From positions 1,971,501 through 2,035,500 of the forward strand of contig NZ_CP038255.1 of the NCBI RefSeq assembly GCF_004564135.1: 64,000 nucleotides of DNA, given 5' to 3'. This DNA comes from Terasakiella sp. SH-1 (lineage in GTDB: Bacteria > Pseudomonadota > Alphaproteobacteria > Rhodospirillales > Terasakiellaceae). The notes beneath the pieces are model-generated. The model was not told the DNA's origin, did not search any database, and saw nothing but the letters and a program-made list of their open reading frames with translations. This document shows positions 16,047 through 32,110 of this stretch, piece after piece (position 1 is the first letter of the stretch; each line of letters starts with the position of its first letter). A program made the translations under genes and the position numbers.

Positions 16047-16298
16047 TTATCCACCCGCAACCGGGGGCCAGACGGCGAGATGATCTTTATCATCCAGCTC
16101 TTGTGTGGCACGCTGGCTCGGTTCCACATAGATACCGTTCACCAATACCAAGTGGCAAAACTCTGGCGGCACGCCGTAATCGGCCAACAGCCCTTCAACC
16201 GTCTTCACCCCCTCAACAGTCACCTCAGCCTCATTCCCATTGGCATGTTCGGGCAAATATTTGCCAAGCTGGGCATACAGTTTCAATGTAACATTCAT
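16047..16298 (-). CDS. MoaD/ThiS-family protein with C-terminal Gly-Gly
   Basis: 83 residues with a ubiquitin-like beta-grasp fold pattern. It begins MNVTLKLYAQLGKYLP, has a central LVLVNGIYVEP, and ends HLAVWPPVAGG. The terminal Gly-Gly is what sulfur-carrier proteins need for adenylation and thiocarboxylation. MoaD-like genes often accompany tungsten aldehyde oxidoreductase (AOR) genes, where they are thought to serve the pterin cofactor. Here it is 14 bp downstream of a hybrid kinase gene, and an AOR locus lies a few kb upstream on the same strand. The start ATG 16298 has only a weak ribosome-binding site. Confidence 0.8.
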   Translation of the reverse strand: MNVTLKLYAQLGKYLPEHANGNEAEVTVEGVKTVEGLLADYGVPPEFCHLVLVNGIYVEPSQRATQELDDKDHLAVWPPVAGG

Positions 16299-16312: not shown

Positions 16313-18520
16313 TTAAGTCATTGGTGCATTACAGATATGTGAGAGCCAGGCGCGTAGTTTCGCCGGCTTTAACGGCTTGTTCAGCAAGGCATAACCATGA
16401 GACGCAATAGAAGAACGAATTTCATCTGTGCGATCTGCCGTAATCACCATGGCCGGAAACGTCACCTTATGATCCCGCTTCAACCAACTGAGGAAATCAA
16501 GACCTGTTTCCCCGTTATTAAGGTGATAATCGGCAATCACCGCATCGGGGAAACTGGGTAAATCATCAAGCAGGCGCATTGCCTCATTTTGAGAACCAGC
16601 CGTATAAACCGTACAATCCCAATTTTCCAACAGGCTGCGCATTCCCAGCTGGATGTCTGCTTCATTATCAACAATAAGGACTGATAGCCCGTCCAGGCAC
16701 TTCCCTAACTGATCCACAGGCACAGCTTGTGTCTTTTTGCTCTTGCGTGTCACCAGTGGCACACGCACGCTGAAACAGGACCCTTTCCCAACCGCTGAGG
16801 TAACAGAAACCTCATGCCCCAATGTCTGGGCGATGCGTTTGACAATCGCCAAGCCAAGACCCGCCCCTTTTTCTTCGTTAGAAGCGGCATTTTCAAGCTG
16901 GCGGAATTCTTCGAAAATGTGGCGTTGGTCCTGATCTGAAATCCCCGTACCGGTGTCATAGACACTCAGGCACAGTTCTTTGCCCTCTTGCCTTGCCCCA
17001 ACAATGATGCGCCCCTTTTCAGTATAACGCACCGCATTGCTGACAAAATTGCGCAAAATCCGTGACAAGAGCTTGGGATCGCTTGAAACGGTTTTACTGG
17101 AGCCAATCACCTTCAACTCACAACCCTTTTTCTGCGCCAACGGGCCATATTCACGTTGCAGGCGATCAAACAAATCATTGAGGTCATAATCAGACACAAC
17201 AACAGGCACGGCCCCGGCATCCAGCTTGGAAATTTCCAACAAGGCACCAAGCAGGCTTTCCACCCCTTTTAAGGCAAAATCGGCCCGTTCAACCAGTTGA
17301 TGGTTCTTATCTTCCAGCTCTCGGTCCAACAAAGTGGAAATAAATAGGCGTGAGGCATTAAGGGGTTGGAGCAAATCATGACTGGCTGCGGCCAAAAAGC
17401 GGGTTTTACTCAGGTTGGCCTCTTCTGCGGCCTCTTTGGCATAATGCAGCTCATCGGTGCGCTCACGCACACGCTCTTCCAGATTTTCCTTGGCCTCACG
17501 CAATTGCTTGGCTGCACGCAGGCGAGAAGTCACATCGGTATAGGTCGTTACAAAACCGCCTGTGGGCATGGGGTTGCGCTGCACCTCAATTGAGCGACCA
17601 TCAGGGCGGGTATATTCAAGGAACAACGGTTCCATCTTTTCAGCCCGGTCCAGACGCATCTCAAATTCCGCATCATCGGCACTGCCAAATTCACCACGAA
17701 ACACATTATAACGCAGATATCGCGAATAAGACATGCCGTGTTCGACCAACCCTTCGGGCAGTTCCAGCAATTCCACAAAACGTTGGTTCCAGGCAACCAA
17801 TTTCAGATCCTTATCAAATACAGAAACCCCTTGGCGCAGGTTATCCAGCGTGTTTTGCAGCAGGATATTCTGTTCCGCCAGTTCCTTTTCCCGGCGAATA
17901 CGTTCTTGCTGTTTGATATCCGTAATATCGGTGTAAATCCCAACGATCCCGCCATCTTTGGTCGGGCGTTCATTGATCTTGAGCCAACGCCCGTCTTTTA
18001 ACTGAATAACAAAGGCATCTTTGGGATTGCGATGACGCGCCAGACGTTCATCCAGCCAATCCACCGCATCAGAAACTTCCGAAGGCACCACATATTTATG
18101 AACAAAGCGACGGGCCACATCTTCAAAGCGCGTGCCATAAGAGACATCCTTGTCACGCCCGCCCCAGAAATCCCAGAATTTCTGATTACACAAGATCAAA
18201 CGATCTTCACTGTCATAAAGCGCAAACCCTTCTGAAACACTTTCCACAGCCTCAACCAAGCGGATACGGGCAGTTTCAGCCTCCCCTTTGGTACGTGATA
18301 GCTCTTTATTGACCTTTTCCAAAGAATTAAGCGCGGTTTCCAGCTCGGTCGTACGCTCACGTACCTTGTCATCCAGCAAAGTCGCTGTCTGAAACAGGGA
18401 AAATGCCCCGCCCTGTACATCAAGGGTCCGTTCCACCTGCTTCATCAAGGCTGCAATAATTTTGCGCAGTTTGATGGCTTCATCATCAGTGCCTGTTGGA
18501 ATATCTAATGCATCAATCAT
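16313..18520 (-). CDS. Soluble PAS hybrid histidine kinase (NahK/ErcS'-like)
   Basis: About 735 residues with no membrane segments. There is an N-terminal coiled coil (about 25-90) and two PAS domains (about 95-215, ending YTDITDIK; about 230-345, ending YTDVTSR). The HisKA has the distinctive AAASHDLLQPLNA motif, the ATPase has YDTGTGISD and GAGLGLAIV, and the C-terminal receiver has VIADYHL and LLNKPLKPAK. The SHDLLQPL box is characteristic of kinases like Pseudomonas NahK/ErcS'. It overlaps the FIST gene by 8 bp, a classical FIST-kinase pairing. ATG 18520 is chosen over a TTG at 18532. A close paralogue lies at 27895-29592. Confidence 0.85.
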   Translation of the reverse strand: MIDALDIPTGTDDEAIKLRKIIAALMKQVERTLDVQGGAFSLFQTATLLDDKVRERTTELETALNSLEKVNKELSRTKGEAETARIRLVEAVESVSEGFALYDSEDRLILCNQKFWDFWGGRDKDVSYGTRFEDVARRFVHKYVVPSEVSDAVDWLDERLARHRNPKDAFVIQLKDGRWLKINERPTKDGGIVGIYTDITDIKQQERIRREKELAEQNILLQNTLDNLRQGVSVFDKDLKLVAWNQRFVELLELPEGLVEHGMSYSRYLRYNVFRGEFGSADDAEFEMRLDRAEKMEPLFLEYTRPDGRSIEVQRNPMPTGGFVTTYTDVTSRLRAAKQLREAKENLEERVRERTDELHYAKEAAEEANLSKTRFLAAASHDLLQPLNASRLFISTLLDRELEDKNHQLVERADFALKGVESLLGALLEISKLDAGAVPVVVSDYDLNDLFDRLQREYGPLAQKKGCELKVIGSSKTVSSDPKLLSRILRNFVSNAVRYTEKGRIIVGARQEGKELCLSVYDTGTGISDQDQRHIFEEFRQLENAASNEEKGAGLGLAIVKRIAQTLGHEVSVTSAVGKGSCFSVRVPLVTRKSKKTQAVPVDQLGKCLDGLSVLIVDNEADIQLGMRSLLENWDCTVYTAGSQNEAMRLLDDLPSFPDAVIADYHLNNGETGLDFLSWLKRDHKVTFPAMVITADRTDEIRSSIASHGYALLNKPLKPAKLRAWLSHICNAPMT

Positions 18521-19667
18521 CTGACCATCCAATCGCCACGCCTGTGAAAGTCTGGTTTACATGCATTCCATGGAATTGCTCACCAAAGGTATTAAACCCA
18601 ATCACATTATTCTTTTTCAAAATATCAGAAACACCGTCCAGCCGGTTGTCCCCATGTTGTTCCAGCTCCAATTTTCTGAAAATGCAATCACAGCCGATCA
18701 CCAGCTCCGGCACACCAATTTCTTTTTGAATTTCATTCATGGTGTCATTCAGATTTGCGCTTAAATCCCCCCCTTCTGCCAGGGTGAGCACCAGCCCTTC
18801 ATCAATGGCACAGAAAAACTTTAACCCATCGGCCCCTTCCGGACGTTGAATGGAACGCACAAAATACGACCCGCCAACACGCACCATCACCGGATGTTTG
18901 GCAAAGGTTAAGGAGGTCAATTCAGACGGTGCAACCCCGATCAAACGGGCATATTCTTCCGTCGCGGGGGAAGCATTGATTTCTTTGACAATACGTGAAT
19001 GAGGATCGGCCTCTGTGATCACCATCTTGCGTTCTGTTTCCACAAAATGCTGGGTTCTGAACACTTTGAACGGGCATGAGGTATTCACTAAAATAAGGGC
19101 AGCCCCATCACCAACTGTTTGCCCATTAAAGAAGATTTCGGTTTTTTCAAACTTCAAATCATCCCCGGCAGACCCGCCAAATAAGGGAATATCCCCCAGC
19201 TCCGGGCAAATCGCACTCAGCACCGTTTCTTCAGAAAGAGACAGCCCATCAACCAATAAAAAAGCAAAGGTATGATCTGCAACCCGTGTTAAAGAGGTAT
19301 TTTCCAGCTTGTCCAGCAAGTCACGCGTTTGTTTGCGCCAAGCCGTCATATCAAACTGGGAAACCGGCGAAATCAGATCAGTAACCACCGAAAACTGATC
19401 AACAGGCAAACCAAACGCGCAGACACCGGCTTTATTATAGCCTGAATCATCAATCACCCCGGCAGATGTACAGCCAATCAAGGGAACACCGGGATAAGAA
19501 ACAGAAAGAGCCTCCCCGATTTCGGAAAGCTCATAGGCACCTGCGCAAAAATAAAATAAGGCAGAAAATGGTTGTTCACCCAGCTGACTTTTTAAATCAA
19601 AAACGACATTTTCCATCGTCTGGGCCGTTGAACTTGCTTTTGGTATTTTGATTGACTGCTGCAGCAC
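18513..19667 (-). CDS. FIST-domain sensor protein (NosP-like)
   Basis: 384 residues with FIST_N (about 30-220, with PLIGCTSAGVI and PLFGGSAGDD) followed by FIST_C (about 230-370, ending NVIGFNTFGEQFHG). FIST proteins bind small ligands; some, called NosP, bind haem and sense nitric oxide and inhibit a neighbouring NahK-type kinase. The same pair is found in the Pseudomonas ethanol-oxidation gene region. The start is GTG 19667 after AGGG; no ATG start lies close by. Haem binding cannot be judged from the sequence alone. Confidence 0.85.
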   Translation of the reverse strand: MLQQSIKIPKASSTAQTMENVVFDLKSQLGEQPFSALFYFCAGAYELSEIGEALSVSYPGVPLIGCTSAGVIDDSGYNKAGVCAFGLPVDQFSVVTDLISPVSQFDMTAWRKQTRDLLDKLENTSLTRVADHTFAFLLVDGLSLSEETVLSAICPELGDIPLFGGSAGDDLKFEKTEIFFNGQTVGDGAALILVNTSCPFKVFRTQHFVETERKMVITEADPHSRIVKEINASPATEEYARLIGVAPSELTSLTFAKHPVMVRVGGSYFVRSIQRPEGADGLKFFCAIDEGLVLTLAEGGDLSANLNDTMNEIQKEIGVPELVIGCDCIFRKLELEQHGDNRLDGVSDILKKNNVIGFNTFGEQFHGMHVNQTFTGVAIGWSDD

Positions 19668-19703
19668 CCTGTTTCCCTAATCTTCCTTTTTCTTAAAACG
19701 GCC

Positions 19704-19733
19704 AAAGGGGTGATCAAAACCACCCCTTTTTTT
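19704..19733 (-). terminator. Hairpin between pedF and the FIST gene
   Basis: GGGGTG (19707-19712) pairs with CACCCC (19721-19726). The T run is strong on the plus strand (19727-19733) and short on the minus strand, so as a terminator for pedF it is only moderate. Confidence 0.5.
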
Positions 19734-19744
19734 AGCGTTATATA

Positions 19745-20179
19745 TTAATCTTCCGGCTGTTCATCAATATAAGTTCGAATGGCCCATAGCCCTTCTTGAG
19801 AGATCGTACCGACAAATTTGGGCATATAGACTTTCCCATCACGCACCGCACCGTTAGTTACGCGTTCGATAAACCATTCATCGCCTTCGTAATCGGCTTC
19901 AAGATAACGCAAATCCGGGGCAATCCCGCCTGAAATCGCTTGCAATCCATGGCAACGGGCACAGTTTTGGTTATAGGCAGAAGAACCGATTTCAACGGCA
20001 CGGGCCTTATATTTGCCATCTTCGCGAAACGGGTTGGTTTCTTCCCATTCCTCACCCAGCTTTGGCAGGCCGGACGTATCAACAGCCTGCGGTGTCACAT
20101 CACCATGTGCAAGAGCCTGACCTGCAAAAGCAAATGTTGTTCCTGCCACAAGACCGGCCATAAGGAACTTCTTCAACAT
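19745..20179 (-). CDS. pedF: Cytochrome c-550 PedF-like
   Basis: 144 residues with a signal peptide ending QALA-HG. A single class I haem motif CARCH lies in SAYNQNCARCHGLQAISGGIAPDLR-type context, with axial Met in YMPKF. The segments DVTPQAVDTSGLPKLGEEW and RVTNGAVRDGKVYMP are typical of PedF, the periplasmic electron acceptor of PQQ-dependent alcohol dehydrogenases. The alcohol dehydrogenase itself is not in the window, but PQQ biosynthesis is. ATG 20179 follows GGAGG; an upstream in-frame start at 20218 adds a non-signal-like N-terminus. Its promoter region holds a CGAC-N4-GTCG palindrome. Confidence 0.88.
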   Translation of the reverse strand: MLKKFLMAGLVAGTTFAFAGQALAHGDVTPQAVDTSGLPKLGEEWEETNPFREDGKYKARAVEIGSSAYNQNCARCHGLQAISGGIAPDLRYLEADYEGDEWFIERVTNGAVRDGKVYMPKFVGTISQEGLWAIRTYIDEQPED

Positions 20180-20271
20180 GTATTTTTCCTCCAAAGCGTA
20201 GCGCTCGTTTCTCAGCACTATGTTTCATTACCTGTTGTATTTTATACCCAGTTTGGCCCCTTCATTTCTGC

Positions 20272-20285
20272 TCGACTTTGGTCGC
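20272..20285 (-). promoter_or_regulatory. Candidate operator upstream of pedF
   Basis: Minus strand GCGACCAAAGTCGA, an inverted CGAC-CAAA-GTCG, about 93 bp before the pedF start. A near copy lies upstream of pqqA (32311-32328) and a weaker one upstream of the second MoaD-like gene (27451-27466). A second partial copy (TTTCGACCTTTGG, minus strand) lies at about 20296-20308. Confidence 0.45.
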
Positions 20286-20320
20286 ATTTGCCCTATCCAA
20301 AGGTCGAAACAGGCATAAAA

Positions 20321-20346
20321 AAAGCCGTTCCTGAAAAAGGAACGGC
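20321..20346 (-). terminator. Terminator of the aor operon
   Basis: On the minus strand GCCGTTCC pairs with GGAACGGC (20324-20331 and 20339-20346), followed by a run of seven T residues. It lies 26 bp beyond the aorC stop. Confidence 0.9.
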
Positions 20347-20371
20347 CAAGTTAAGTTAGCGGAGAATATCC

Positions 20372-21703
20372 TCAGACCTGAGAAAGGGATACATAAGCAT
20401 CCATAATCAAATGAGGATCTTCTATCAGGCGCTCTTTCCAAACACCTAATTCTGTTTTGCCCTGAATAAGGCCACGCAACACACCCACATGGTCTGTACG
20501 ACCCAGGGTTTGCGCCCCGACCAAAACGTCGCCATCAAATTCAAGACGGATATAGCGATAATTTTCTTCATCAAGGCGTTCCACACTGTCGCCACCGGGA
20601 ACCCCTTCCCACTGACCAAAGGAAGCTGAAATCAGCCCCAGCGTATCCAGCACGTTCATCACCAGCGAGCCTTGATAGGTCGTTTCATGACCACACATAT
20701 TTTTCGCTGCAATGCGCCCATGATCAGCCGCTGTCGGCTGAATGGCATGTACGGACCAGCCCCCTGTGGAGAAATCCGGGCCTTGAGCCACATCGCCTGC
20801 GGCATAGATATTGGGAACAGCAGTTTGCAGATGGGCATCGACACGAATGCCTTCTTCAATTTCAACACCGGAACCTTCCAAAAAGGCCGTGTTGGAACGC
20901 ACACCGGCCGCAACTACCAACAAATGCGCCGGGATTTGTTCACCATTGTCCAGATCAACCAGCAATGTGTCTTCCGGATCGCCTTTATTGGGTTCAACCA
21001 TCGTGATTTTTGTGGAGGTATGGACCGTAATGCCTTTTTCCTCACACCATTTTTTCAGCAAGTTACCACATGTGGGGTTCAACATGCGCGGCACCATACG
21101 GTCGCCCATTTCCACCACAGTCAAATTCACTTTACGAAGGGCAAGGGCTTCGAGAATAATACAGCCGATAAAGCCTGCCCCCATCAAGACCACATGCGCC
21201 TCTTCATGGGCCAGTTCAATGATCTTGCGCGCATCTTCCAGCGTCCAGCAATGGTGAACACCCTTGTTATCCAGCCCTTGGATCGGCGGCTTGATCGGGC
21301 TTGCCCCTGTGGCCAGACACAGTTTGCCATAACCGATGGAAGAGCCATCACTCAGTTTCAGGCTGCTTGCCGCGCTATCAACATGGCTGACCAGCCCTTG
21401 GCAATAATCAATATTCATTTCTGCATAATGAGTATCGTTGCGGCGCAGGTAGGTACCATTTTCTTCGACCTTCCCCACAAGGTAATAGGGAATAGCCATA
21501 CGGGAATAAGGCGGCTCATTTTCACCGCTGATCAAGAGGATCGTGCCGTTTGGGTCTTCCTTGCGCAGGTTTTCAACTGCCTGCACACCCGCAGGCCCGG
21601 CACCAACGACCACATAATCATAATTTGCATTCATGGCTGTTGAGGAAGAGGCAGCCGCCGTTTCTTCACCCATGCCGAAAATTTTTTTAATCAGTCGGAT
21701 CAT
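20372..21703 (-). CDS. aorC: FAD/NAD(P)-dependent oxidoreductase, AorC-like subunit
   Basis: 443 residues of the pyridine nucleotide-disulfide oxidoreductase fold. The FAD Rossmann motif VVVGAGPAGVQA lies after a 30-residue leader, YSRMAIPYYL follows, the NAD motif is VVLMGAGFIGCI, and the second FAD motif is IYAAGDVAQG. No redox-active CxxxxC is present, so it resembles NADH-rubredoxin reductase-like enzymes. With the two genes upstream it reproduces the AorABC set of NAD-dependent tungsten aldehyde oxidoreductases, where this subunit exchanges electrons with NAD. A terminator-like hairpin lies between aorB and this gene. Confidence 0.8.
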   Translation of the reverse strand: MIRLIKKIFGMGEETAAASSSTAMNANYDYVVVGAGPAGVQAVENLRKEDPNGTILLISGENEPPYSRMAIPYYLVGKVEENGTYLRRNDTHYAEMNIDYCQGLVSHVDSAASSLKLSDGSSIGYGKLCLATGASPIKPPIQGLDNKGVHHCWTLEDARKIIELAHEEAHVVLMGAGFIGCIILEALALRKVNLTVVEMGDRMVPRMLNPTCGNLLKKWCEEKGITVHTSTKITMVEPNKGDPEDTLLVDLDNGEQIPAHLLVVAAGVRSNTAFLEGSGVEIEEGIRVDAHLQTAVPNIYAAGDVAQGPDFSTGGWSVHAIQPTAADHGRIAAKNMCGHETTYQGSLVMNVLDTLGLISASFGQWEGVPGGDSVERLDEENYRYIRLEFDGDVLVGAQTLGRTDHVGVLRGLIQGKTELGVWKERLIEDPHLIMDAYVSLSQV

Positions 21704-21721
21704 ATTCTTTAATTCCTGAAT

Positions 21722-21762
21722 AAAAAAGGCGGACCTTCTGCGTTAAATACAGAAAGTCCGCC
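21722..21762 (-). terminator. Intercistronic terminator/attenuator between aorB and aorC
   Basis: On the minus strand a 13-bp stem (12 pairs) formed by 21750-21762 and 21728-21740 is followed by TTTTTT (21722-21727). It lies 16 bp after the aorB stop and before the aorC start, and would reduce aorC transcription relative to aorAB. Confidence 0.8.
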
Positions 21763-21777
21763 CATTTATAACGAGAC

Positions 21778-23625
21778 TTAGGACAGTCCCAGACGGTTCA
21801 GCGTATCACCAGTCGGCACACCTTCGGCGTCCCAACCACGAAGCTGATAATATTCCGGCAACATTTTGCCTAGCTCGTTCACCTTGCCCTTGGCCGGGCC
21901 GGTTTTCGCAGCATCTTTCAACAAACGTTGCGGCAATGTATCGTCTTTACCTGTGAACCCGGCAGCCAGATTGTACTGACGTTCCATGTTCCAGATACGC
22001 TCGCCAACTTCGAGCATTTTCTCAACAGACCAGTCGCCTTCACAAGCGGCATTCACTTGCGGTGCGATATCTTCCAGAGACCATGCAAAAGTGGTGAAGA
22101 TACACAGACCAGAAGAGTCAACAGCAGCTGTTGCATCCTGGAAAGCCATAACCAGACCTGCCTTGCCGTCTGTCACCAGCGGATCAGTCTTTTCTGGAAT
22201 ACCCAGAACTTCAGATGCGATAGTGTAAGAACGCAAGTGACAAGCACCACGGTTTGATGTGGCATAAGTCAGGCCCATACCTTGAACACCACGGGCGTCA
22301 TAAGCCGGGAATTCTTGTTTCTTCACAGACATGGACAGTTCCGGGTGACCGTATTTTTCACAAAGACGGGCAGAACCCAAACCGATTTCCAGACCGAAGC
22401 CTTCGCCACGACCAACCATCTCGGCCAAATCAGTCAATGCTTTTGCATTACCGAATTTCAGCTCGATACCGCCTGTTTGTTCAGTGGTCAATGCACCGAT
22501 TTCAAACAGTTCCATGGCTGCACCAACTGTAGCACCGAACGAAATTGGGTCATAGCCCTGTTCGTTACAGATGAAGTTGGCAAATGTCAGGGCTTCAATG
22601 TCATCAATCCCACATTCAGAACCAAGTGACCATGCAGCTTCATATTCCAGACCACCAGAAGCACCTTGATACTCAGGGCGATCTTTTACGGTGTAGTGGG
22701 TACGCTCAACAGTGGAAACACGCTGACAAGCAATTGTACAACCGTAACAAGCGGCATTTGTTGTCAGGTTCTTGGTGCCGTCTGCACGAACTTCGTGCAT
22801 TTTCTCACCAGAAATATTGGCGGCGCCTTCAAACTGAACTTCACGGAAGTTACGTGTCGGCATGGCACCGATTTCGTTGATCACATTCATCAGAACCTGT
22901 GTACCGTAAGTCGGCAGGCCCTGACCTGTAACCGGGTTTTCAGCCAGAACAGCTTTACCCGCATTTGTCGCTTCAAGGAATTGTGCCGGGTCTTCAACGC
23001 GCACACCTTTTGTCCCGCGAATGGCAACCGCTTTCAGGTTCTTGGAACCCATCACCGTACCTACGCCAGAACGACCTGCTGCACGGTCCATGTCGTTTAC
23101 GACACAGGCATAAAGCACGCCTTTTTCACCGGAAACACCAATGGAGGCAACGCGGACTTGCGGGTCTTGCAGGTCAGCCTTAATGCCTTCTTCCGTATCC
23201 CAGCAGGACTTACCCCAATAATTAGAGGCATCCACCAGCTCAGCTTCATCATTGGTGATGCTCAGATAAACCGGCTTGTCCGATTTACCTTCAAAAATCA
23301 CCATATCCCAGCCAGCGTTCTTCATTTCGTTACCGAAGAAACCACCGGAGTTGGAACAAGCGATCGCACCCGTCAGCGCACCTTTTGTCACAACGGTGTA
23401 ACGACCGGATGTGGAGGCACAAGTGCCTGTCAGCGGGCCGGTTGCCATGATCAGTTTGTTTTCAGGAGAAAGCGGGTCCACCTTCGGGTCCGTTTCTTCG
23501 ATGAAATATTTTGTCGCCAGACCGCGTGAGCCCAGATATTCCTGTGCCCATGCCATATTCAGGTCTTCAGACGTACAAGTGCCTTTAGAAAGGTTCACCC
23601 GCAGCAATTTACGTGTCCAAGCCAT
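21778..23625 (-). CDS. aorB: Tungsten-type aldehyde ferredoxin oxidoreductase, large subunit
   Basis: 615 residues, the normal length for the AOR family. The N-terminal domain carries GPLTGT and GRYTVVTKGALTG. GVGTVMGSKNLKAVA is the pterin-binding segment. The [4Fe-4S] ligands are CYGCTIAC (CxxCxxxC) plus a distal Cys in SSGLCIF. These hold a bis-pterin tungsten centre next to the cluster; the enzyme oxidises aldehydes to acids, or the reverse with low-potential electrons. GGAGG precedes ATG 23625. The context (ferredoxin subunit, FAD subunit, MoaD-like genes, TupA) supports tungsten rather than molybdenum. The natural aldehyde is unknown; PQQ alcohol oxidation nearby suggests it removes product aldehydes. 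Confidence 0.93.
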   Translation of the reverse strand: MAWTRKLLRVNLSKGTCTSEDLNMAWAQEYLGSRGLATKYFIEETDPKVDPLSPENKLIMATGPLTGTCASTSGRYTVVTKGALTGAIACSNSGGFFGNEMKNAGWDMVIFEGKSDKPVYLSITNDEAELVDASNYWGKSCWDTEEGIKADLQDPQVRVASIGVSGEKGVLYACVVNDMDRAAGRSGVGTVMGSKNLKAVAIRGTKGVRVEDPAQFLEATNAGKAVLAENPVTGQGLPTYGTQVLMNVINEIGAMPTRNFREVQFEGAANISGEKMHEVRADGTKNLTTNAACYGCTIACQRVSTVERTHYTVKDRPEYQGASGGLEYEAAWSLGSECGIDDIEALTFANFICNEQGYDPISFGATVGAAMELFEIGALTTEQTGGIELKFGNAKALTDLAEMVGRGEGFGLEIGLGSARLCEKYGHPELSMSVKKQEFPAYDARGVQGMGLTYATSNRGACHLRSYTIASEVLGIPEKTDPLVTDGKAGLVMAFQDATAAVDSSGLCIFTTFAWSLEDIAPQVNAACEGDWSVEKMLEVGERIWNMERQYNLAAGFTGKDDTLPQRLLKDAAKTGPAKGKVNELGKMLPEYYQLRGWDAEGVPTGDTLNRLGLS

Positions 23626-23637
23626 CAGGTAACCTCC

Positions 23638-24117
23638 TTATGCTTCTGTTGCTGTGCCGGTGTCGGTCTTGGCCGCCCATGCACGCATTTTTTCAAGACC
23701 AGTGGCTTCGGCATCAACGAATGTAATCGCGCCTGTTGGACAAGCGGACGCACATTTCGGATCACCACCACACAGGTCACATTTCGCAACCTTGCCAGTA
23801 TCCGGCACATAGTTGACTGTGCCAAACGGACAAGAAATTGTACAAACCTTACAGCCTACACAAGCTGAATCGGCAACAACTTTTGCCCCTGTTTCTGCAT
23901 CAACAGTAATCGCTTCCACCGGGCAAGAACGCATACACCATGCTTCAGAACATTGTGTACATGTGTAAGGCACAAAGCGGCCTTCGTGGTGAAATTTGAA
24001 TACTTTGATGCGAGATTTTGAAGGGTTAAACTCCCCAACATGTTCCATCGAACAAGCGACTTCACATTGCAGACATCCGGTACATTTATCCGGATTGATA
24101 TTTAGCGCTTTCTGCAT
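23638..24117 (-). CDS. aorA: Polyferredoxin-like electron-transfer subunit of AOR
   Basis: 159 residues with sixteen cysteines in four [4Fe-4S] motifs: CTGCLQCEVAC, CTQCSEAWCMRSCP, CVGCKVCTISCP and CDLCGG-x-PKCASACP. This is the HycB/DmsB-like layout that passes electrons between a pterin subunit and a flavin subunit. The start at ATG 24117 is chosen because the sequence then begins KALNINPDKCTGC as in homologues; the frame is open upstream to 24177. It is the first gene of the minus-strand aorABC operon, 12 bp before aorB. Confidence 0.9.
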   Translation of the reverse strand: MQKALNINPDKCTGCLQCEVACSMEHVGEFNPSKSRIKVFKFHHEGRFVPYTCTQCSEAWCMRSCPVEAITVDAETGAKVVADSACVGCKVCTISCPFGTVNYVPDTGKVAKCDLCGGDPKCASACPTGAITFVDAEATGLEKMRAWAAKTDTGTATEA

Positions 24118-24258
24118 CTTCCCGTTCCTTAAGTCAGCACTCTGTCTCAGATTTATCAGCAGTCTGGCCCCTGCCAAGAAACCAGCCCAACAGGAGCTAC
24201 TTTCATTTATGGTTTAAGATAGTGAAGGAGTGTCCACGATGTGCGCCTTATCCGCAAT

Positions 24259-24924
24259 TCAACTAAAGGCGAATACGGTTTCATTTTCCTGTAAAAACTG
24301 AAGGACAAAAGTCGTATTGAAGCGTTCTTCCCTTGTAAGGGGCACCTCCAATACCGGACCTTTCAGCACCTGAATACGTGATCCTAACTGAATGGCTTCA
24401 CTGGGGATGTGAGTGACAAACAGGGCCTTAAGCTGATATTTCTGCACTGTCTCAAACACAAGCCTACGCAAAGCCTCTGCCCGATCAGGGTCAAGGGAGA
24501 CAAAAGGCTCATCCAAAATCAGGACATCGGGTTTCACCGCCAAGGCCCGTGCCAAGGACACACGGCGTGCCATGCCGAGGGAGAGTTTTGATGCCATCCG
24601 GTCTTTAACCGCGCCAAGGCCAACTTCCTCTAACAAACCATCAACTTGGCTGTCCTCATTCGGGCATACAAGGGCGACATTGTCACGCACCGTGCGCCAT
24701 GGCAGAAGACGTGGTTCCTGAAAGACAAAGCCAACTTTTTCGGCCTTTGGCGTGACGTGGCCGTCAAAGTCTTCATCTAGTCCTGCCACAATGCGTAACA
24801 GTGTACTTTTCCCGGCCCCCGATGGGCCGCAGATCACCTGAATTTCACCGGGATGCAAATCCAGCTCAATATCTTTTAAAATGGTTTGGCCGTCATAGGC
24901 TTTATGGGCAATGGAGATTTTCAT
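24259..24924 (-). CDS. ABC transporter ATPase (NitT/TauT type)
   Basis: 221 residues. Walker A is GPSGAGKST, the Q-loop is FVFQEPRLLPW, the signature is LSLGMARR, Walker B is VLILDEPF and the switch His is in FVTHI. Family comparisons favour SsuB/TauB-like importers of organic anions or sulfonates. ATG 24924 overlaps the permease stop as ATGA, so the two are coupled; the longer in-frame starts lie inside the permease gene. The substrate is not known. The operon (cytochrome c, binding protein, permease, ATPase) sits within the alcohol/aldehyde oxidation island. Confidence 0.88.
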   Translation of the reverse strand: MKISIAHKAYDGQTILKDIELDLHPGEIQVICGPSGAGKSTLLRIVAGLDEDFDGHVTPKAEKVGFVFQEPRLLPWRTVRDNVALVCPNEDSQVDGLLEEVGLGAVKDRMASKLSLGMARRVSLARALAVKPDVLILDEPFVSLDPDRAEALRRLVFETVQKYQLKALFVTHIPSEAIQLGSRIQVLKGPVLEVPLTREERFNTTFVLQFLQENETVFAFS

Positions 24925-25670
24925 GAGCCCACCCGCCATGCGGTCACTCGTTTTTCCCACGGACGGATCAGGCCATATTCAATGGTCCAGATGATGACAA
25001 TAAAGGCAATGGAATAAGCCAGAATCCCCGTCACATCAAACATCTGGAAAAACAGGTGGAGCTGAAAGCCCACCCCATCACTGCGTCCCAACAGTTCCAC
25101 CACCAAGACGATTTTCCAGATCAAGGCAAGGCCAGAGCGTGCTGCCGCTGCAAAATAAGGGGTCAGCTGGGGCAAGATCACATTTTTCACCAAGCTCATG
25201 GGCGATAAGCGATAAATCTTCGCCATTTCCGCCAAGTCCCGGTCCAGTGCCTTCGCCCCTTCACGCAGGGTGACGGCCACATTGGGGATTTTATTAATCG
25301 CCACCGCCAAAACAGCTGCAACTTCATCCAAACCGATCCAGAGATAACACAGGATAATGACCACCAAGGCCGGAAGGTTAAGTAAAAACAAAAGCCAGCT
25401 GTCAAAAAACAGGCCCAGCTTTTTATGCATCCCCATCACCAATCCGATAAAACTGCCAAGTCCCATGGCAAGAATAAAGGCGGCAATCACCCGCCACAAG
25501 GTTGCCAGACAATGGATCAACAGTTCCCCACTTTGGAGCTCTGCGCCCATGCGCACCAAGACCTCTTGAGGTGGGGGCAAAAGCTCCGTCTGTGAGAAAA
25601 AAGCAAATCCAGCCCATAGCCCCACCAAGGAAGCGATCGACAGGGACTGGATGACAATGCTTCTGGGCAT
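24921..25670 (-). CDS. ABC transporter permease (NitT/TauT type)
   Basis: 249 residues with about six transmembrane segments. The cytoplasmic EAA loop reads REGAKALDRDLAEMAKIYRLSP (about 135-156), where the ATPase docks. It matches SsuC/TauC-like permeases. Its start lies 3 bp after the binding-protein stop and its stop overlaps the ATPase start. Confidence 0.88.
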   Translation of the reverse strand: MPRSIVIQSLSIASLVGLWAGFAFFSQTELLPPPQEVLVRMGAELQSGELLIHCLATLWRVIAAFILAMGLGSFIGLVMGMHKKLGLFFDSWLLFLLNLPALVVIILCYLWIGLDEVAAVLAVAINKIPNVAVTLREGAKALDRDLAEMAKIYRLSPMSLVKNVILPQLTPYFAAAARSGLALIWKIVLVVELLGRSDGVGFQLHLFFQMFDVTGILAYSIAFIVIIWTIEYGLIRPWEKRVTAWRVGS

Positions 25671-25673
25671 GGA

Positions 25674-26645
25674 TTAATAGGAAACGTCTTTAACAAACGT
25701 GCCTTGCGGGATGGTTTTGGCCTTTCCCACAAGCTTGGTCCCCCCCAGTTGGGACAACAGTTCAAACAAGGAACTGGCACCTGCGCGTTCCCCCTGCCCC
25801 CATTTGGAGGGCACACCGTTTAAGAACCCCGTTTTCAGGGCTTGGTAGGTTGCCTCATTCTTTGCTTTCATCAGCGGTTTGATCTTGGCCCAGGCTTGCT
25901 CATCTGTAGCAAGAATTTCTTTGGCTTTACGCGACGCCCGTGACAGGGCCTGCTTCAATTTCATATTCTGTTCAAAGCGTGGACCAAAGACATAACCAAT
26001 CATCGGGACATTTTCATCCAGTCCCATGACTTGTAAGGCATCAGCTACATTGAGTACACGTTCGAACCCTTTGGCTTCCAGCTTGGCCGCAAAATGCCAA
26101 AAGTTGATCACCGCATCCAGCTCGCCACTTTCCAGCTTTTTTGATAATAACGGCGGGGCACCAAAAACCGTTTCAACATTTTTTGCCAGATCAAATCCAT
26201 GTTCTTTCAAGGCCACAGCCTGAAACAGCAACCAGCTTTTATCAACCGGGCCACCTGCAATCCCGATTTTCTTGCCCGTCAAGTCAGGCAAACTTTTAAT
26301 CTGGTCTTTCGGGTCAGCCATCATGGCCCCGACCATGCGTGAATACGGGATAAAGCTGAAATGGCGACCTTCATGACGTTGGCGTGCCACCCAAATCCAG
26401 TCATTCACAATCACATCAACCGCATCCCCATAAAGTGCGGTGACAGACGCCTGCTTGCCAGCAAAGGGAACGATTTCCAGATTAAAGCCTTCTGCCTTAT
26501 CCAGGCCATACGCCTTAATGGTTTGGAGTTCCCAATTCACCGTACCGAACTTCAACACCCCTGCTCGCAAAGAGGGGACTTGTGCCGATGCGTTATGAAC
26601 CGCAAACGCAACAAAAAAAACAAACATGGCAAATAGTTTTTTCAT
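25674..26645 (-). CDS. ABC transporter periplasmic binding protein (SsuA/NrtA-like)
   Basis: 323 residues with a signal peptide cleaved near ASA-QV. It contains LRAGVLKFGTVNWEL, a PFAGKQASVTALYGDAVDVIVNDW segment (the usual ligand-binding stretch of TauA-like proteins) and GKKIGIAGGPVDKSW. ATG 26645 follows GGAGGG with a spacing of about 9; the GTG at 26663 is upstream of that ribosome-binding site. The ligand cannot be assigned. The position beside a c-type cytochrome, pedF and PQQ genes links it to alcohol oxidation. Confidence 0.85.
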   Translation of the reverse strand: MKKLFAMFVFFVAFAVHNASAQVPSLRAGVLKFGTVNWELQTIKAYGLDKAEGFNLEIVPFAGKQASVTALYGDAVDVIVNDWIWVARQRHEGRHFSFIPYSRMVGAMMADPKDQIKSLPDLTGKKIGIAGGPVDKSWLLFQAVALKEHGFDLAKNVETVFGAPPLLSKKLESGELDAVINFWHFAAKLEAKGFERVLNVADALQVMGLDENVPMIGYVFGPRFEQNMKLKQALSRASRKAKEILATDEQAWAKIKPLMKAKNEATYQALKTGFLNGVPSKWGQGERAGASSLFELLSQLGGTKLVGKAKTIPQGTFVKDVSY

Positions 26646-26671
26646 CACAAGTCCCTCCTTCACCTCAGGGG

Positions 26672-27076
26672 TTACTTAAATGTTTTCAGAAATTCGATCA
26701 GGAAATCCTGTTCAGCTGGGTCCGTGATCTGCACATGGCGCATACGTGTCCCAGCAACCACCAGTGTGTTACCTTCAATCCAGGCACGCAGGAAATCTTC
26801 ATCCCATGTGATATCGGATTTTTTCAAGTCTGCAGAATATTCAAAACGGGGCTGGCTGGCGGCTTTGCGCATATACACACCACGCAGGTTGGGGCCGAAC
26901 GTATTTTTCGCCGGGTCCATGGAATGGCATTTCATACATTTCTGAAACACCTGTACCCCTGCAGCTGCTTTTGAATTTGGCGGGGTATAGCCAAACATGT
27001 CTTCTGCTTGTGCATCCGTATTAGCAAAAGTTACAGCACCCAGCGCCAAAGCTGCTGCCATCAATGATTTAAACAT
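26672..27076 (-). CDS. Class I cytochrome c
   Basis: 134 residues with a signal peptide cleaved near AQA-ED. The haem motif is CMKCH, NTFGPNLRGV follows, and a distal Met in RMRHVQI or MRH is the likely sixth ligand. It is a c550-type electron carrier in the periplasm. ATG 27076 is the start that gives a clean signal peptide. It is the first gene of the unit continuing into the binding protein, permease and ATPase. Confidence 0.85.
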   Translation of the reverse strand: MFKSLMAAALALGAVTFANTDAQAEDMFGYTPPNSKAAAGVQVFQKCMKCHSMDPAKNTFGPNLRGVYMRKAASQPRFEYSADLKKSDITWDEDFLRAWIEGNTLVVAGTRMRHVQITDPAEQDFLIEFLKTFK

Positions 27077-27112
27077 TTTGTCTCTCTTTCTAAACAATTG
27101 ATCAAATTCAAT

Positions 27113-27383
27113 TAGGGCGTAAACTCATAAAATAGACTTGTTTAGCGGAGATGTATTTGAGGATAGACAAGGCATGAAACCCGCAGAAGTGCAAGCACTT
27201 TAAGGGTTTTATAACGCAGCTCTATCCTCAAATACATCCCGTCCCTTACGGGATTTCCCCAAAATATAGGCATTACTGCGTTAAAGTCTTTTGAAAGTAC
27301 AAGTACTTCCTGCAAGCCTTTGCCTTGTCTTGCCTATATTTTGGGGAAACCAAAGCAAGTCTATTTTATGAGTTTACACCCTA
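27113..27383. repeat. Three-stem palindromic element, copy 1
   Basis: 271 bp between divergent genes. The closing stem is 27113-27140 with 27356-27383 (27 of 28 pairs, ends TAGGG and CCCTA). Arm A is 27150-27167 with 27221-27238 (18 of 18). Its loop holds a nested AAACCC/GGGTTT and AAGTGC/GCACTT hairpin. The central palindrome CCCGT-CCCTT-ACGGG is at 27238-27252. Arm B is 27254-27272 with 27331-27349 (19 of 19), with a loop hairpin AAGTAC/GTACTT. There is no open reading frame. It is homologous to 49162-49429 in reverse orientation. Confidence 0.9.
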
Positions 27384-27450
27384 GGTTCAGCATAAGCAGG
27401 CTCAATCGTTTTTTCATTTCGACTTTCGACCAATGAAAAACCCTGCCACA

Positions 27451-27466
27451 TTCGCCAAAAGTCGTA
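27451..27466 (+). promoter_or_regulatory. Candidate operator upstream of the second MoaD-like gene
   Basis: TTCGCCAAAAGTCGTA resembles the pedF (GCGACCAAAGTCGA) and pqqA (TTCGACCAAAGGCGAA) sites. Additional TTTCGAC repeats lie at about 27417-27430. It is weaker than the other two and could serve either divergent unit. Confidence 0.3.
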
Positions 27467-27555
27467 TTTCAAAATTGTCGAAAATCAAATTCATTGCGCC
27501 CCAAACGTCTTAAAATTTCAAAGATCAAGAGCAAACCACAAACAGGCACAATTAA

Positions 27556-27885
27556 ATGACAAAACAATCACCCATGATCGGTCATAATTCAGGTGGAGCA
27601 ACCGTCACAATTGAAGTCCGCCTGTTTAACTCCATGCATACAAAGGGCAATCCTGAGGCCGTAAAGGAACCGCTTGAATACCCTGCGGGTACAACGGTGG
27701 GGGATGTTTTTCGCGACCTGAAACTGCCCCGCGAAGAACTTTTTCTCATTTTGGTCAACGGACGTGATATCTCCCCCGGTTTGGTTGGCGATGTGCGTTT
27801 TGCCCATGAACTCGAAGAAGGTGATATCCTTGCTTTTTCAGGCCCTGTCCCCTACAGTTTCGGATATGGTGCCCCGGTTGTTTAG
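27556..27885 (+). CDS. MoaD/ThiS-like protein lacking terminal Gly-Gly
   Basis: 109 residues. After a variable N-terminus (MTKQSPMIGHNSGG), a beta-grasp domain begins VTIEVRLFNSM, with AGTTVGDVF, LFLILVNGRDI and FAHELEEGDILAFSGPV. It ends GYGAPVV rather than Gly-Gly, so it is unlikely to act as a sulfur carrier unless processed. It lies 9 bp before a hybrid kinase gene. The MoaD-like gene at 16047 also adjoins a closely related kinase. Confidence 0.75.
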   Translation: MTKQSPMIGHNSGGATVTIEVRLFNSMHTKGNPEAVKEPLEYPAGTTVGDVFRDLKLPREELFLILVNGRDISPGLVGDVRFAHELEEGDILAFSGPVPYSFGYGAPVV

Positions 27886-27894
27886 AGCAGGTTA

Positions 27895-29592
27895 ATGGAT
27901 GAACGTCTAAAATCGCTTCAGGAAGAAAATGAAGCCTTAAAACAGCGGGTATCCGAACTCGAACAACGAGATGAGCTTTACACACTGGCGATGGAAGTCC
28001 CCAACGAAGGGTTGTGGGACTGGAACCCGGTGACAAAAGAGCTGCTTATTTCCTCACGCCTGATGGAAACTTTAGGCCATACAGGTGAATCAAAGTTCAC
28101 AACAACCTATGAATGGCTGGACTGGGTTCATCCCGAAGATATTGCAGGCTATGAACAAAAAGTCACCGAGCACCTTAAGGGGCTGACCGACTTTTTTGAA
28201 TGGGAATACCGTGTTTGCGATACCAAAGGCCAATATCACTGGGTCTTGGCACGAGGCAAAGCCTTACGCGATGAAAATGGCATCGCCTATCGCATGGTAG
28301 GTTCTGTTGGTGACATCACCAAACGACATATCGCAGAAGAACAATTACAACAAGCCCATGACCTGCTGGAAGACCGTGTGGCGAAACGAACTTCCGAACT
28401 TACACGGGTTAATAAGGTTCTGAACGAGGAAATCAATGAACGTAAAATCATTGAAAAAGAACTTAAACTTGCCAAAGAAGAAGCTGAACGCGCCCATCAA
28501 AGTAAAAATAAATATCTCGCAGCGGCCAGCCACGACCTGCTGCAACCCCTTAATGCCGCCCGTATTTTAATTGCAACCTTACAGGAACGCCCGCTGACCC
28601 CAGACAATATGTCACTGGTTAATCGCACCCATATTGCCATGGAAGCTGCTGAAGAACTGCTGATTGATCTGCTGGACATTGCCAAGCTGGATGCCCATAA
28701 AATGTCTGTCGATCTGCAAAAAAGTGCTGCCAGCCGTTTACTGAACTCTCTTTATGATGAATTAAAACCCATCGCCAAGCGATCCAATGTCAGCTTAAAA
28801 ATTATACCTTGTTCTGCGGGGTATTTCAGCGACACCCGTCTGCTGGGGCGTATTTTGCGCAATTTCCTGAACAACGCCATTCGTCATGCCAGCGGTGGCC
28901 GGGTGTTATTGGGCTGTCGCCGTTACGGTGATTTCTTGCGTTTTGAAGTCTGGGATACGGGCTGCGGTATTCCGCAAAATAAATTACATGAGATTTTCCA
29001 GGAATTTCACCAGCTCAAGGCGCATCCCCATGAGATCAGTGAAACAGGCGTCGGGCTCGGCCTCGCCATCGTTGAGCGAATTGCCAAAATGCTGGACCTC
29101 AAGATCAATGTACGCTCCCAACTGGGCAAAGGATCAGTCTTCAGTGTTGAAGTCCCTTATTGCCCGGTTGAACCCCAAAGCGCCCCTGCAATCCCGGTTG
29201 ATGTGGTGAGCGACTTATCCGGTAAAGAATTTCTGGTGGTTGATAATGAAAGCGCGATCACCCATTCCATGTCAGACTTGCTGCATCAATGGGGGGCTGT
29301 GCCTTATTGCGCCTTGTCTTTACGCACAGCCCTGACGGAACTGGATCATAACCGCCTGAAACCAGATGCCCTTTTAGTTGACTATCACCTAGAAGATAAC
29401 GAAACGGGCATTGAAGTCATTGACGCAATCAAGAAACGTTTGGGGCATGATATCCCCGCCGCCCTGATCACGGCGGATCGTTCTCCGGAACTGGCAAACC
29501 TGTGTAAGGAACTCGGTGTGCGCTTGCTCAACAAACCGATTAAACCTGCGAAACTTCGTGCGCTGTTGTCTTATCTGGTAAAAGACGCCTGA
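27895..29592 (+). CDS. PAS hybrid histidine kinase (ErcS/NahK-like)
   Basis: 565 residues, soluble. There is an N-terminal coiled coil (1-25) and a PAS/PAC domain (about 28-145, with WDWNPVTKELL and GSVGDITKR). A linker coil leads to HisKA with AAASHDLLQPLNA, the ATPase with WDTGCGIPQ and GVGLGLAIV, and a receiver (about 440-560) with FLVVDNE, ALLVDYHLEDN and LLNKPIKPAK. The HisKA, ATPase and receiver parts are close to the kinase at 16313-18520, so the two are paralogues. It has one PAS domain instead of two. Its last 53 bp overlap the convergent peptidase gene. Confidence 0.88.
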   Translation: MDERLKSLQEENEALKQRVSELEQRDELYTLAMEVPNEGLWDWNPVTKELLISSRLMETLGHTGESKFTTTYEWLDWVHPEDIAGYEQKVTEHLKGLTDFFEWEYRVCDTKGQYHWVLARGKALRDENGIAYRMVGSVGDITKRHIAEEQLQQAHDLLEDRVAKRTSELTRVNKVLNEEINERKIIEKELKLAKEEAERAHQSKNKYLAAASHDLLQPLNAARILIATLQERPLTPDNMSLVNRTHIAMEAAEELLIDLLDIAKLDAHKMSVDLQKSAASRLLNSLYDELKPIAKRSNVSLKIIPCSAGYFSDTRLLGRILRNFLNNAIRHASGGRVLLGCRRYGDFLRFEVWDTGCGIPQNKLHEIFQEFHQLKAHPHEISETGVGLGLAIVERIAKMLDLKINVRSQLGKGSVFSVEVPYCPVEPQSAPAIPVDVVSDLSGKEFLVVDNESAITHSMSDLLHQWGAVPYCALSLRTALTELDHNRLKPDALLVDYHLEDNETGIEVIDAIKKRLGHDIPAALITADRSPELANLCKELGVRLLNKPIKPAKLRALLSYLVKDA

Positions 29593-30655
29593 TACGGTCC
29601 TGTGCACTGGGATGAGTACTGTAAAACAGGGAATAAAGCGGATCATCACGCATGGGGGTCAAATTCTGGCCGATAATTTTCCTTAAGGCGTCAACAAAAA
29701 CCCCAGCCCCCATATCGCAAGCCGCCTGATCATCCGCCTGAAACTCAAAACGGTGCATTAATCGGCTGGAAAATGGCATCAGTAAAAAGTCCACATATGA
29801 ATAGCCCACAATCGCCAACAAAATCGGAGAAGAGCTGTTAATCTCCCAACCGGTCATCTTCACCAATGTGATAAACATTAAAAAAGACAGGCACAAACAA
29901 GCCCCCTGATAGGCAACCCATTTGAGGTGATGGTGATGAAGAATATGACCTTTTTCATGGGCGAGAACCGATAGGAATTCCTCCTTTTCCAATAAGGCTT
30001 TCAAGCCGTGGGTATAAACAACAAACGGCTCTTTAAAACCTGCATGGGCACGGGCATTGGCATGGGTGTTATTGCGGCTTTCAATATCTTCAAAAACTTG
30101 AATGCCTCCCAAAGGCTGTTCCTGTGCAGGTAAAAGTTCACTAAACACACGGGCCTTAAACAATGGCCCCACAATCTGCTGTGCCCAAAGCGAAAAAAAG
30201 ATAAAGAAACATAAAACCGCATAAGATTGCTGTTCAATCAACAGCAAGGCAACCAGTAAAACAGGCGCAGCCACCATCATAGCCCGCCCCATACGTTGGG
30301 CTGATTTATAGCTATAATGGGCAAAACTGTCTTTGGCCTGTCCTTGCTTTTTCATCAACAGCCATAGACGCAGATCAAACATCACCCATCGAATAAAACC
30401 AACACCACAGGCAAGCCCAAGCGTGATCAGCCCCCCTTCCAAAAGAGGTTTACGGGCTAACATATCCAACATAAACAGCAGGCAAAACGTAAAAAGAATA
30501 AAATCCGTACATTCCCGCCCCAGCAATATTTTCAGGCGAGCCACCGCCATGACGCTTTCATCAGGGCGCTGTGCGAGCTGTTGGTTTTGGCGAAAAATCA
30601 GATAGAGTTTCAGGGCGAAGACACAAAAGGCCGCGATGAGAAACGTGGCGTTCAT
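29540..30655 (-). CDS. M48-family membrane metallopeptidase
   Basis: 371 residues with several transmembrane segments (about 4-22, 55-75, 80-98, 130-170, 265-310). The zinc-binding HExxH is present as LAHEKGH (about 240), and the third ligand is probably the Glu of RFEFQADDQA. This is the HtpX/Ste24-like fold with the catalytic face in the cytoplasm. It starts 3 bp after pqqE, so it is the last gene of the pqq operon. No M16-type PqqF is seen in the window, so a role in PqqA-derived peptide cleavage is conceivable but unproven; general membrane protein quality control is the alternative. Confidence 0.82.
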   Translation of the reverse strand: MNATFLIAAFCVFALKLYLIFRQNQQLAQRPDESVMAVARLKILLGRECTDFILFTFCLLFMLDMLARKPLLEGGLITLGLACGVGFIRWVMFDLRLWLLMKKQGQAKDSFAHYSYKSAQRMGRAMMVAAPVLLVALLLIEQQSYAVLCFFIFFSLWAQQIVGPLFKARVFSELLPAQEQPLGGIQVFEDIESRNNTHANARAHAGFKEPFVVYTHGLKALLEKEEFLSVLAHEKGHILHHHHLKWVAYQGACLCLSFLMFITLVKMTGWEINSSSPILLAIVGYSYVDFLLMPFSSRLMHRFEFQADDQAACDMGAGVFVDALRKIIGQNLTPMRDDPLYSLFYSTHPSAQDRIRRLLPDKTTAHEVSQV

Positions 30656-30658
30656 ACC

Positions 30659-31807: not shown

Positions 31808-32063
31808 GGGCCGTCTCCATAAAGGCAAACACATCATCGGCCAGCTCATCACTGGCATTAAATTGTTCTTTTAAACGTAGCACAATTTCTTCAACCGTGC
31901 GCTTTCCATCCACCAAATTCATGATGTAGCCAGCCGGGCCGTTCAATTTAATCAGACCTTCGGGATATAACAGCATATGCGCCTGTTGGGACTCTTCCCA
32001 GCGAAAAATATAAACCGGGTTAATCGCCGGACAATCACTTAAATTAATCGGGCTGTTTTGCAA
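31782..32063 (-). CDS. pqqD: PqqD, PqqA-binding chaperone
   Basis: 93 residues of the RiPP-recognition-element fold, with YPEGLIKLNGPAGYIMNLVDGKRTVEEIV typical of PqqD (middle third). It hands PqqA to PqqE. The start is TTG 32063, with AGGAG seven bases upstream; a longer TTG start at 32081 lies upstream of the ribosome-binding site. No ATG is available. It is preceded by a hairpin that separates it from pqqA. Confidence 0.9.
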   Translation of the reverse strand: MQNSPINLSDCPAINPVYIFRWEESQQAHMLLYPEGLIKLNGPAGYIMNLVDGKRTVEEIVLRLKEQFNASDELADDVFAFMETALDKGWIKV

Positions 32064-32110
32064 CGTACTTCTCCTGGCCAAAGAATATATTGTTGTTTTT
32101 CTTAAAAATA

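Follow-up and report, generated by a model that had tools for sequence, protein, structure and literature searches.

The tungsten aldehyde oxidoreductase AorABC of Aromatoleum aromaticum EbN1 (structure 8c0z) assembles into a filament, with the C-terminal helix or tail of AorA mediating filament formation (PMC10413684) and AorC serving as end cap and nucleator. In purified AorABC each AorC is accompanied by two to four AorAB; how far the complex oligomerises in the cell is described as unknown by the authors of that study (PMC10413684). The principle that a hairpin sets the stoichiometry of neighboring gene products is already known from other systems (PMC9045158, PMC6238624, PMC10665913), including E. 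coli operons, where the work concerned mRNA decay (PMC5927463). Here we analyzed the gap between aorB and aorC in a 64,000-nucleotide (nt) stretch of the Terasakiella sp. SH-1 genome, referred to in its entirety as the window, and in related operons. As a new result, we find that a hairpin occurs specifically on the 3' flank of aorB and is common across the Pseudomonadota sampled. To judge from the sequence, the hairpin probably makes cells produce more AorAB wire units than AorC caps. The words "hairpin" and "terminator" are absent from the main texts of three papers on this enzyme (PMC10413684, PMC12096430, PMC6365974), and a search of the open-access literature, judged by titles and the starts of abstracts, gave no paper on the aorB-aorC gap. 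PMC9765128, consulted for a proteomic subunit ratio in A. aromaticum, mentions the enzyme in its main text only within the reference list.

The aor operon of the window and its hairpin

The window genome is a single contig of 3.83 Mb. Open reading frames (ORFs) of the window were compared with PDB, Pfam and NCBIfam, and three of them, on the minus strand in the order aorA, aorB, aorC, proved to be relatives of the genes for the Aromatoleum enzyme. The features on which the argument depends are the following.

23638..24117, minus strand: aorA, polyferredoxin-like small subunit of 159 residues; top PDB match 8c0z_C (E 1.7e-75); Fer4 families
21778..23625, minus strand: aorB, tungstopterin catalytic subunit of 615 residues; top PDB match 8c0z_A (E 3.7e-299)
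21727..21763, minus strand: intercistronic hairpin, 15-bp stem (8 G-C) and 7-nt loop, beginning 14 nt 3' of the aorB stop
21722..21727, minus strand: tract of six T (U tract in the RNA), the first T doubling as the last base of the stem
21713..21717, minus strand: weak Shine-Dalgarno sequence AGGAA of aorC, within the 23 nt between stem and ATG
20372..21703, minus strand: aorC, flavin (FAD)/NAD(H) subunit of 443 residues; top PDB match 8c0z_E (E 1.1e-132); Pyr_redox_2, 190 bits

The best PDB matches of the three proteins are thus the three chains of 8c0z, in agreement with the assignment made in an earlier note on this DNA; by these matches the window operon is of the AorABC, or class III tungsten oxidoreductase, type. 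None of the three proteins reaches an NCBIfam cut-off among the matches listed. AorB carries both AFOR domains (AFOR_N, 259.7 bits; AFOR_C, 468.7 bits). The AorA translation and its Fer4 families give 16 Cys in four groups, corresponding to four [4Fe-4S] sites. Its C-terminal tail, TFVDAEATGLEKMRAWAAKTDTGTATEA, comprises the 28 residues beyond the last Cys motif and contains GLEKMRAWA; the alignment with 8c0z_C spans this tail.

The earlier note had described a strong hairpin with six T residues between aorB and aorC. Both are real, with the small correction that the stem runs to 21763 and not to 21762. The sequence right after the hairpin stem (21763-21727) is TTTTTATTCA, and the stem, loop and U tract that characterize an intrinsic terminator are all present. 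The local fold has a free energy of -26.1 kcal/mol, a value reached by none of 500 dinucleotide shuffles, and the complete 74-nt gap folds at -28.6 kcal/mol (z -5.2; 0 of 200 shuffles as good). L135, the other linked Terasakiella operon, keeps the hairpin: of its 15 stem pairs 10 are unchanged, 3 are changed on one side, 2 on both sides, and none is broken. The stem ends just 23 nt before the ATG of aorC, and the energy of the duplex formed there with the anti-Shine-Dalgarno sequence is -4.3 kcal/mol, compared with -11.5 kcal/mol for aorB.

Hairpins downstream of aorB in other operons

To place the window in a wider context we assembled 297 aorB matches from Alpha-, Beta- and Gammaproteobacteria, each a tblastn match of at least 600 bits reaching residue 600. 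Collapsing identical 900-nt 3' ends left 250 distinct 3' ends. The sources are a non-random sample: 317 genomes of the order, 199 from a family, 369 from a class, 60 relatives, and the best 80 loci of one collection scan. Matches were taken in from 70 of 80 places in the family sample and 50 of 51 in the class sample, and some from the order sample were left out. Each gap was scored by its best 46-nt local hairpin against 40 dinucleotide shuffles, with z < -2 counted as strong; this span misses longer hairpins, such as that of L057 (z -0.6). An aorC gene lies downstream of aorB on the same strand in 228 of the 250 loci, within 250 nt in 221. Gaps were scored only at 25-250 nt, so that 7 of the 228 lie beyond the limit, while 49 of the 221 linked operons have a gap below 25 nt or an overlap, leaving 172 scorable.

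A strong hairpin is present in 129 of these 172 gaps (75%), and 95 of them fall below z -3. By comparison, at the same loci strong hairpins were found in 51 of 282 other same-strand gaps (18%), 29 of 135 convergent gaps and 12 of 92 divergent gaps, the control genes having been called by a crude longest-ORF caller. Between aorA and aorB only 30 of 244 gaps are long enough to score, and 6 of these have a strong hairpin. Fixed 90-nt windows past the stop codon gave 149 of 247 for aorB (60%), 13 of 244 for aorA (5%) and 27 of 200 for aorC (14%), with 14 of 248 inside aorB. When the same fixed windows were restricted to genes followed by a gap, the counts were 123 of 172 for aorB and 30 of 172 for other same-strand genes (odds ratio 11.9; Fisher p 1e-24, a value that ignores relatedness). 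When each of 108 aorB clusters was represented by a single drawn locus, the mean hairpin fraction was 0.70. By cluster majority, 161 aorB clusters divide into 79 with the hairpin, 26 with a gap and no hairpin, 31 with no gap, 13 with no aorC, and 12 cut or otherwise classed. A first pass over a smaller set of 94 loci had given z < -2 in 55 of 70 scored gaps and strict T-tailed hairpins in 15 of 90; L104 was left out of one step of that pass, and L104 and L128 went unscored in the next.

The position of the hairpin is steady: it starts at a median of 17 nt past the aorB stop (middle half 12-23 nt) and ends at a median of 33 nt before the aorC match. Its sequence varies between lineages, even inside one aorB cluster. 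The AorC of locus L277 is identical to that of 8c0z over the 68 residues compared, so L277 comes from A. aromaticum EbN1 or from a nearly identical relative. Its gap, from the aorB stop to the aorC match, is 120 nt long and holds a local hairpin of -37.1 kcal/mol that has no U tract and that none of 500 shuffles equaled. The comparison of gaps to which the earlier note had pointed finds the hairpin specifically after aorB in most aorABC operons, the A. aromaticum type included. One linked operon with a hairpin (L301) has an aorA frame that stops after 91 residues, from either a truncated gene or an assembly error.

Such a hairpin could have a different job, insulating the translation of aorC from ribosomes finishing aorB, or it could be a neutral palindrome, in either case with no intended effect on the subunit ratio. 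Some gaps indeed contain long G+C-rich palindromic tracts (e.g. L097 and L089), and the 49 operons without a gap leave no place for a hairpin. The enrichment follows aorB but not aorA, and after aorC it does not exceed the control level, which speaks against this explanation. Nor is the 74-nt gap of the window a dispersed repeat, its genome containing one full-length match and seven partial ones of at most 25 nt (E at least 0.86), and an Rfam scan of 19000-25000 gave five weak matches, every one under its gathering score. A strong hairpin also follows aorB in 10 of the 14 loci without an adjacent aorC, which a role in aorC translation does not predict. Considering these points together, we regard a different job as very improbable.

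Proposed mechanisms: termination, protection or separate transcription

We propose the following mechanism, to which as a whole (a minority of read-through and AorAB above AorC) we assign a probability of about 50%. The genes aorA, aorB and aorC would be co-transcribed as one operon read from upstream of aorA, and the hairpin and U tract after the aorB stop would act as a leaky intrinsic terminator. Most transcripts would stop at this point, giving a stable mRNA of the two genes aorA and aorB with its 3' end protected by the hairpin, and a minority would read through into aorC, which itself has a weak ribosome-binding site. The result would be more AorAB than AorC, as would be required for filaments in which one AorC cap serves several AorAB protomers. 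In GC-rich relatives, where the hairpin is often without a U tract, protection of the aorAB segment probably has the larger part. The translation signals point the same way, as the ribosome-binding site of aorC is usually the weaker of the two: in 195 of 227 loci the Shine-Dalgarno energy favors aorB and in 28 it favors aorC, with the aorC start codons picked by a rule that favors good Shine-Dalgarno sites. The conserved hairpin and the weaker ribosome-binding site of aorC together make an excess of AorAB over AorC well motivated.

Several observations weigh against this mechanism. No hairpin below z -2 is present in 43 of the 172 gaps, and of the 49 operons without a gap only 11 show one in the 90 nt past the aorB stop. 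The AorA filament tail is kept in all 48 no-gap loci with an aorA match (a tail of at least 21 residues; 33 called by motif and 15 by eye on printed ends), which indicates that the hairpin is dispensable. The idea that operons lacking the hairpin lose the AorA filament tail was rejected on the same count. Pooling 28 sister pairs gave 8 double changes, with pairing kept in 33 of 72 changed pairs (46%), and slid controls gave 1-5 and 35-47%; turnover of these gaps is too rapid for a good alignment. For the complete L277 gap the fold is not clearly better than that of shuffled sequences, 17 of 200 matching it (z -1.4). As for the protein, the abundant free AorAB reported from the AorABC preparation fits an AorAB excess, but the authors of that study explain it by longer filaments falling apart (PMC10413684), and the purification tag of the recombinant enzyme sat on AorA (PMC9295118); synthesis of AorAB in excess over AorC would give the same picture of free AorAB. 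A promoter may lie inside aorB, although the tight spacing between hairpin and aorC argues against it. Finally, at least five T occur in the next eight bases after only 34 of the 129 strong hairpins, and at least four after 54.

This last count makes termination one of two likely mechanisms. The other is post-transcriptional: transcription would run through to aorC, the message would be cut between the cistrons, and the hairpin would shield the 3' end of aorAB from exonucleases, on the pattern of the Rhodobacter puf operon, with AorAB still in excess. Strict T-tailed hairpins are found in 41 of the 172 aorB-aorC gaps (2.2 expected from shuffles), compared with 14 of 282 same-strand controls (1.8 expected). 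Their share falls with the G+C content of the gap, from 14 of 24 below 50% through 14 of 38 at 50-60% to 13 of 110 above 60%, indicating that the hairpin is the common feature and the U tract mainly one of A+T-richer gaps like that of the window. Together with the work on E. coli operons (PMC5927463), the scarcity of T tails favors protection, which in many species is at least as likely as termination. On the other side stand the good U tract in the window itself and the unlinked aorAB copies of Terasakiella. Ordinary termination is expected for the latter, and all five end in the same kind of strong hairpin, with a T run of 6-9 within 110 nt in four of the five. As a complete explanation in place of leaky termination, protection seems to us possible and rather unlikely. 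Either termination or protection would leave more aorAB mRNA than aorC mRNA. The earlier note had proposed partial termination as the source of an AorAB excess. The excess remains in keeping with the hairpin and with the weak Shine-Dalgarno sequence of aorC; termination as the general means does not fare as well, given the few T-tailed hairpins and the 49 of 221 operons without room for one.

A third explanation is suggested by the arrangement of aorC in other genomes: the hairpin may be the mere end of an aorAB unit, with aorC read from a promoter of its own concealed towards the 3' end of aorB and the ratio set by the two promoters. The window genome contains a second aorAB with no adjoining aorC, its AorB 89% identical, and an unlinked second aorC that is 66% identical. 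Genome G001 has the same three pieces, and its unlinked aorC match spans residues 29-352. A single aorAB and a single aorC apart from it are found in each of three further Terasakiella genomes (G002, G004 and G005), and G003 has neither at the thresholds used. When eight further genomes were examined, five without an adjacent aorC held one aorC outside the stretch around aorB; of the others, G055 had no aorC, G009 had three matches, and G330 had an aorC approximately 2 kb downstream of aorB. The unlinked aorC of the three Terasakiella genomes and of the five further ones, and the strong hairpins at the 10 of 14 loci without an adjacent aorC, speak for two separate promoters. However, a scan of 21600-22400 for sigma70-like promoters found no match on either strand, a result based on an E. 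coli-type consensus that alphaproteobacterial promoters can escape; a separate strong promoter before aorC is what the earlier note had named as counting against its proposal. The short spacing leaves little room for a promoter, both in the window and in the 106 of 129 hairpin operons where the aorC match begins within 60 nt of the hairpin. In A. aromaticum, moreover, aorABC, aorD and aorE are treated as one operon (PMC6365974). We therefore consider control by two promoters quite improbable.

In a tree of AorC, the unlinked Terasakiella proteins (100/100) stand apart from the two linked ones, which group with those of L057 (Sedimenticola hydrogenitrophicus) and L058 (94/84). The unlinked second aorC of the window genome (L133, 4767-8089, minus strand) is followed by genes for a 103-residue protein, a TupB-like permease and an ATP-binding cassette (ABC) ATPase, possibly a tungstate importer; the permease scores 170 bits, under the cut-off of 320, and the 103-residue protein has no Pfam or NCBIfam match. 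Among 12 loci having aorA but no adjacent aorC, only L308 and L309 have an AorA without the filament tail. These are paralogous aorAB-like pairs with no downstream aorC and no hairpin (z 0.8 and 0.3).

The conserved element that separates the wire-unit genes from the cap gene is genetic evidence for a surplus of units over caps in the cell. The filament stoichiometry, for which the earlier note saw possible genetic evidence here, would agree with more AorAB mRNA than AorC mRNA, although such an excess would be no proof of it. The element would also provide a handle on wire length that can be deleted or swapped. It may matter for recombinant production as well: the aor genes of the reported expression plasmids were amplified from the chromosome (PMC9295118), so the plasmids may keep the native gap.

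The AorC start and the genes around the operon

The AorC of the window has an N-terminal extension that is absent from A. aromaticum-type AorC (L277). This extension and the structure at the far end of the gene are as follows.

21617..21703, minus strand: AorC N-terminal extension, residues 1-29, MIRLIKKIFGMGEE..., amphipathic by sequence
20323..20347, minus strand: terminator-like hairpin 3' of aorC, 10 bp with a T-rich tail

A short hydrophobic and basic start (MIRLIKKIFG, MFGLLKKVFA, LIGLLKRVFG, MWKLIKKLFG and others), and then a linker roughly 20 to 260 residues long, is found in AorC of the window and of L135, L057, L058, L079, L065, L090, L207 and L278. A motif search matched 9 of the 228 aorC loci, one of them (L125) probably spurious, with L207 seen separately. 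The stretch resembles the membrane-targeting tail of MinD. In an AlphaFold2 (AF2) model, residues 1-23 have a predicted local distance difference test (pLDDT) score below 50, and the hydrophobic moment is 0.71 in the window and 0.37-0.59 in seven others. Given the low pLDDT and the lower moments elsewhere, we did not adopt a membrane anchor and retain it as a lead only. A more far-reaching idea, which we hold to be speculative and unlikely, is that the widely conserved hairpin sets nanowire length. The strength of read-through or protection would then fix the number of AorAB per cap, and species differences could be read from the gap; lineages that unlink aorC would have solved the same problem; and in the lineage of the window a cap with a membrane-binding N-terminus would let the wire grow from the membrane.

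The aor operon is surrounded by genes of alcohol oxidation (18513-32081), of which those for the PedF cytochrome c-550 (19745-20218) and PqqE (30659-31858) exceed their NCBIfam cut-offs. ABC-importer genes (24259-26663), including one for an SsuA-like binding protein that is below its cut-off, are found immediately upstream of aorA, and the ORF at 18513-19667 encodes a NosP-like protein, as judged at 444.0 bits (cut-off 450). Two small ORFs are of interest in relation to AorD: that at 16047-16298 belongs to the ThiS/MoaD family (Pfam ThiS) and is a possible counterpart, and that at 27556-27885 has no Pfam or NCBIfam match and is MoaD-like by eye.

Comparison with known systems places the window closest to AorABC of A. 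aromaticum EbN1 (8c0z), with which it shares the three subunits, the gene order and the AorA tail. The A. aromaticum-type operon (L277) likewise places a hairpin in its aorB-aorC gap, but of the two operons only that of the window has the U tract and the 29-residue AorC extension, and the window genome in addition carries the second aorAB and the unlinked second aorC. The puf hairpin of Rhodobacter, between pufBA and pufLMX, is likewise alphaproteobacterial and located between genes needed in unequal amounts; there the effect studied is on mRNA stability (PMC6238624), whereas the window hairpin has a U tract. In cellulolytic Clostridia, ABC-importer operons have internal terminators that resemble it in that a stem-loop, with or without a good U tract, follows the gene needed in excess. 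These belong to another protein system and phylum, and reporter and Northern blot tests show that they terminate 20.7-96.1% of transcription and set transcript ratios (PMC9045158). In Pyrococcus furiosus, a putative terminator follows arlB0, the gene for the repeating filament subunit, and precedes the rest of the operon, as in the window; it differs in being an archaeal poly(T), the word hairpin being absent from the paper, and in that the filament is extracellular (PMC10665913). As in the puf and ABC-importer systems, the hairpin described here has a conserved position, behind the gene whose product is needed in excess and ahead of the following cistron. If its proposed role is correct, the principle that a hairpin sets stoichiometry would extend to an electron-conducting enzyme filament.

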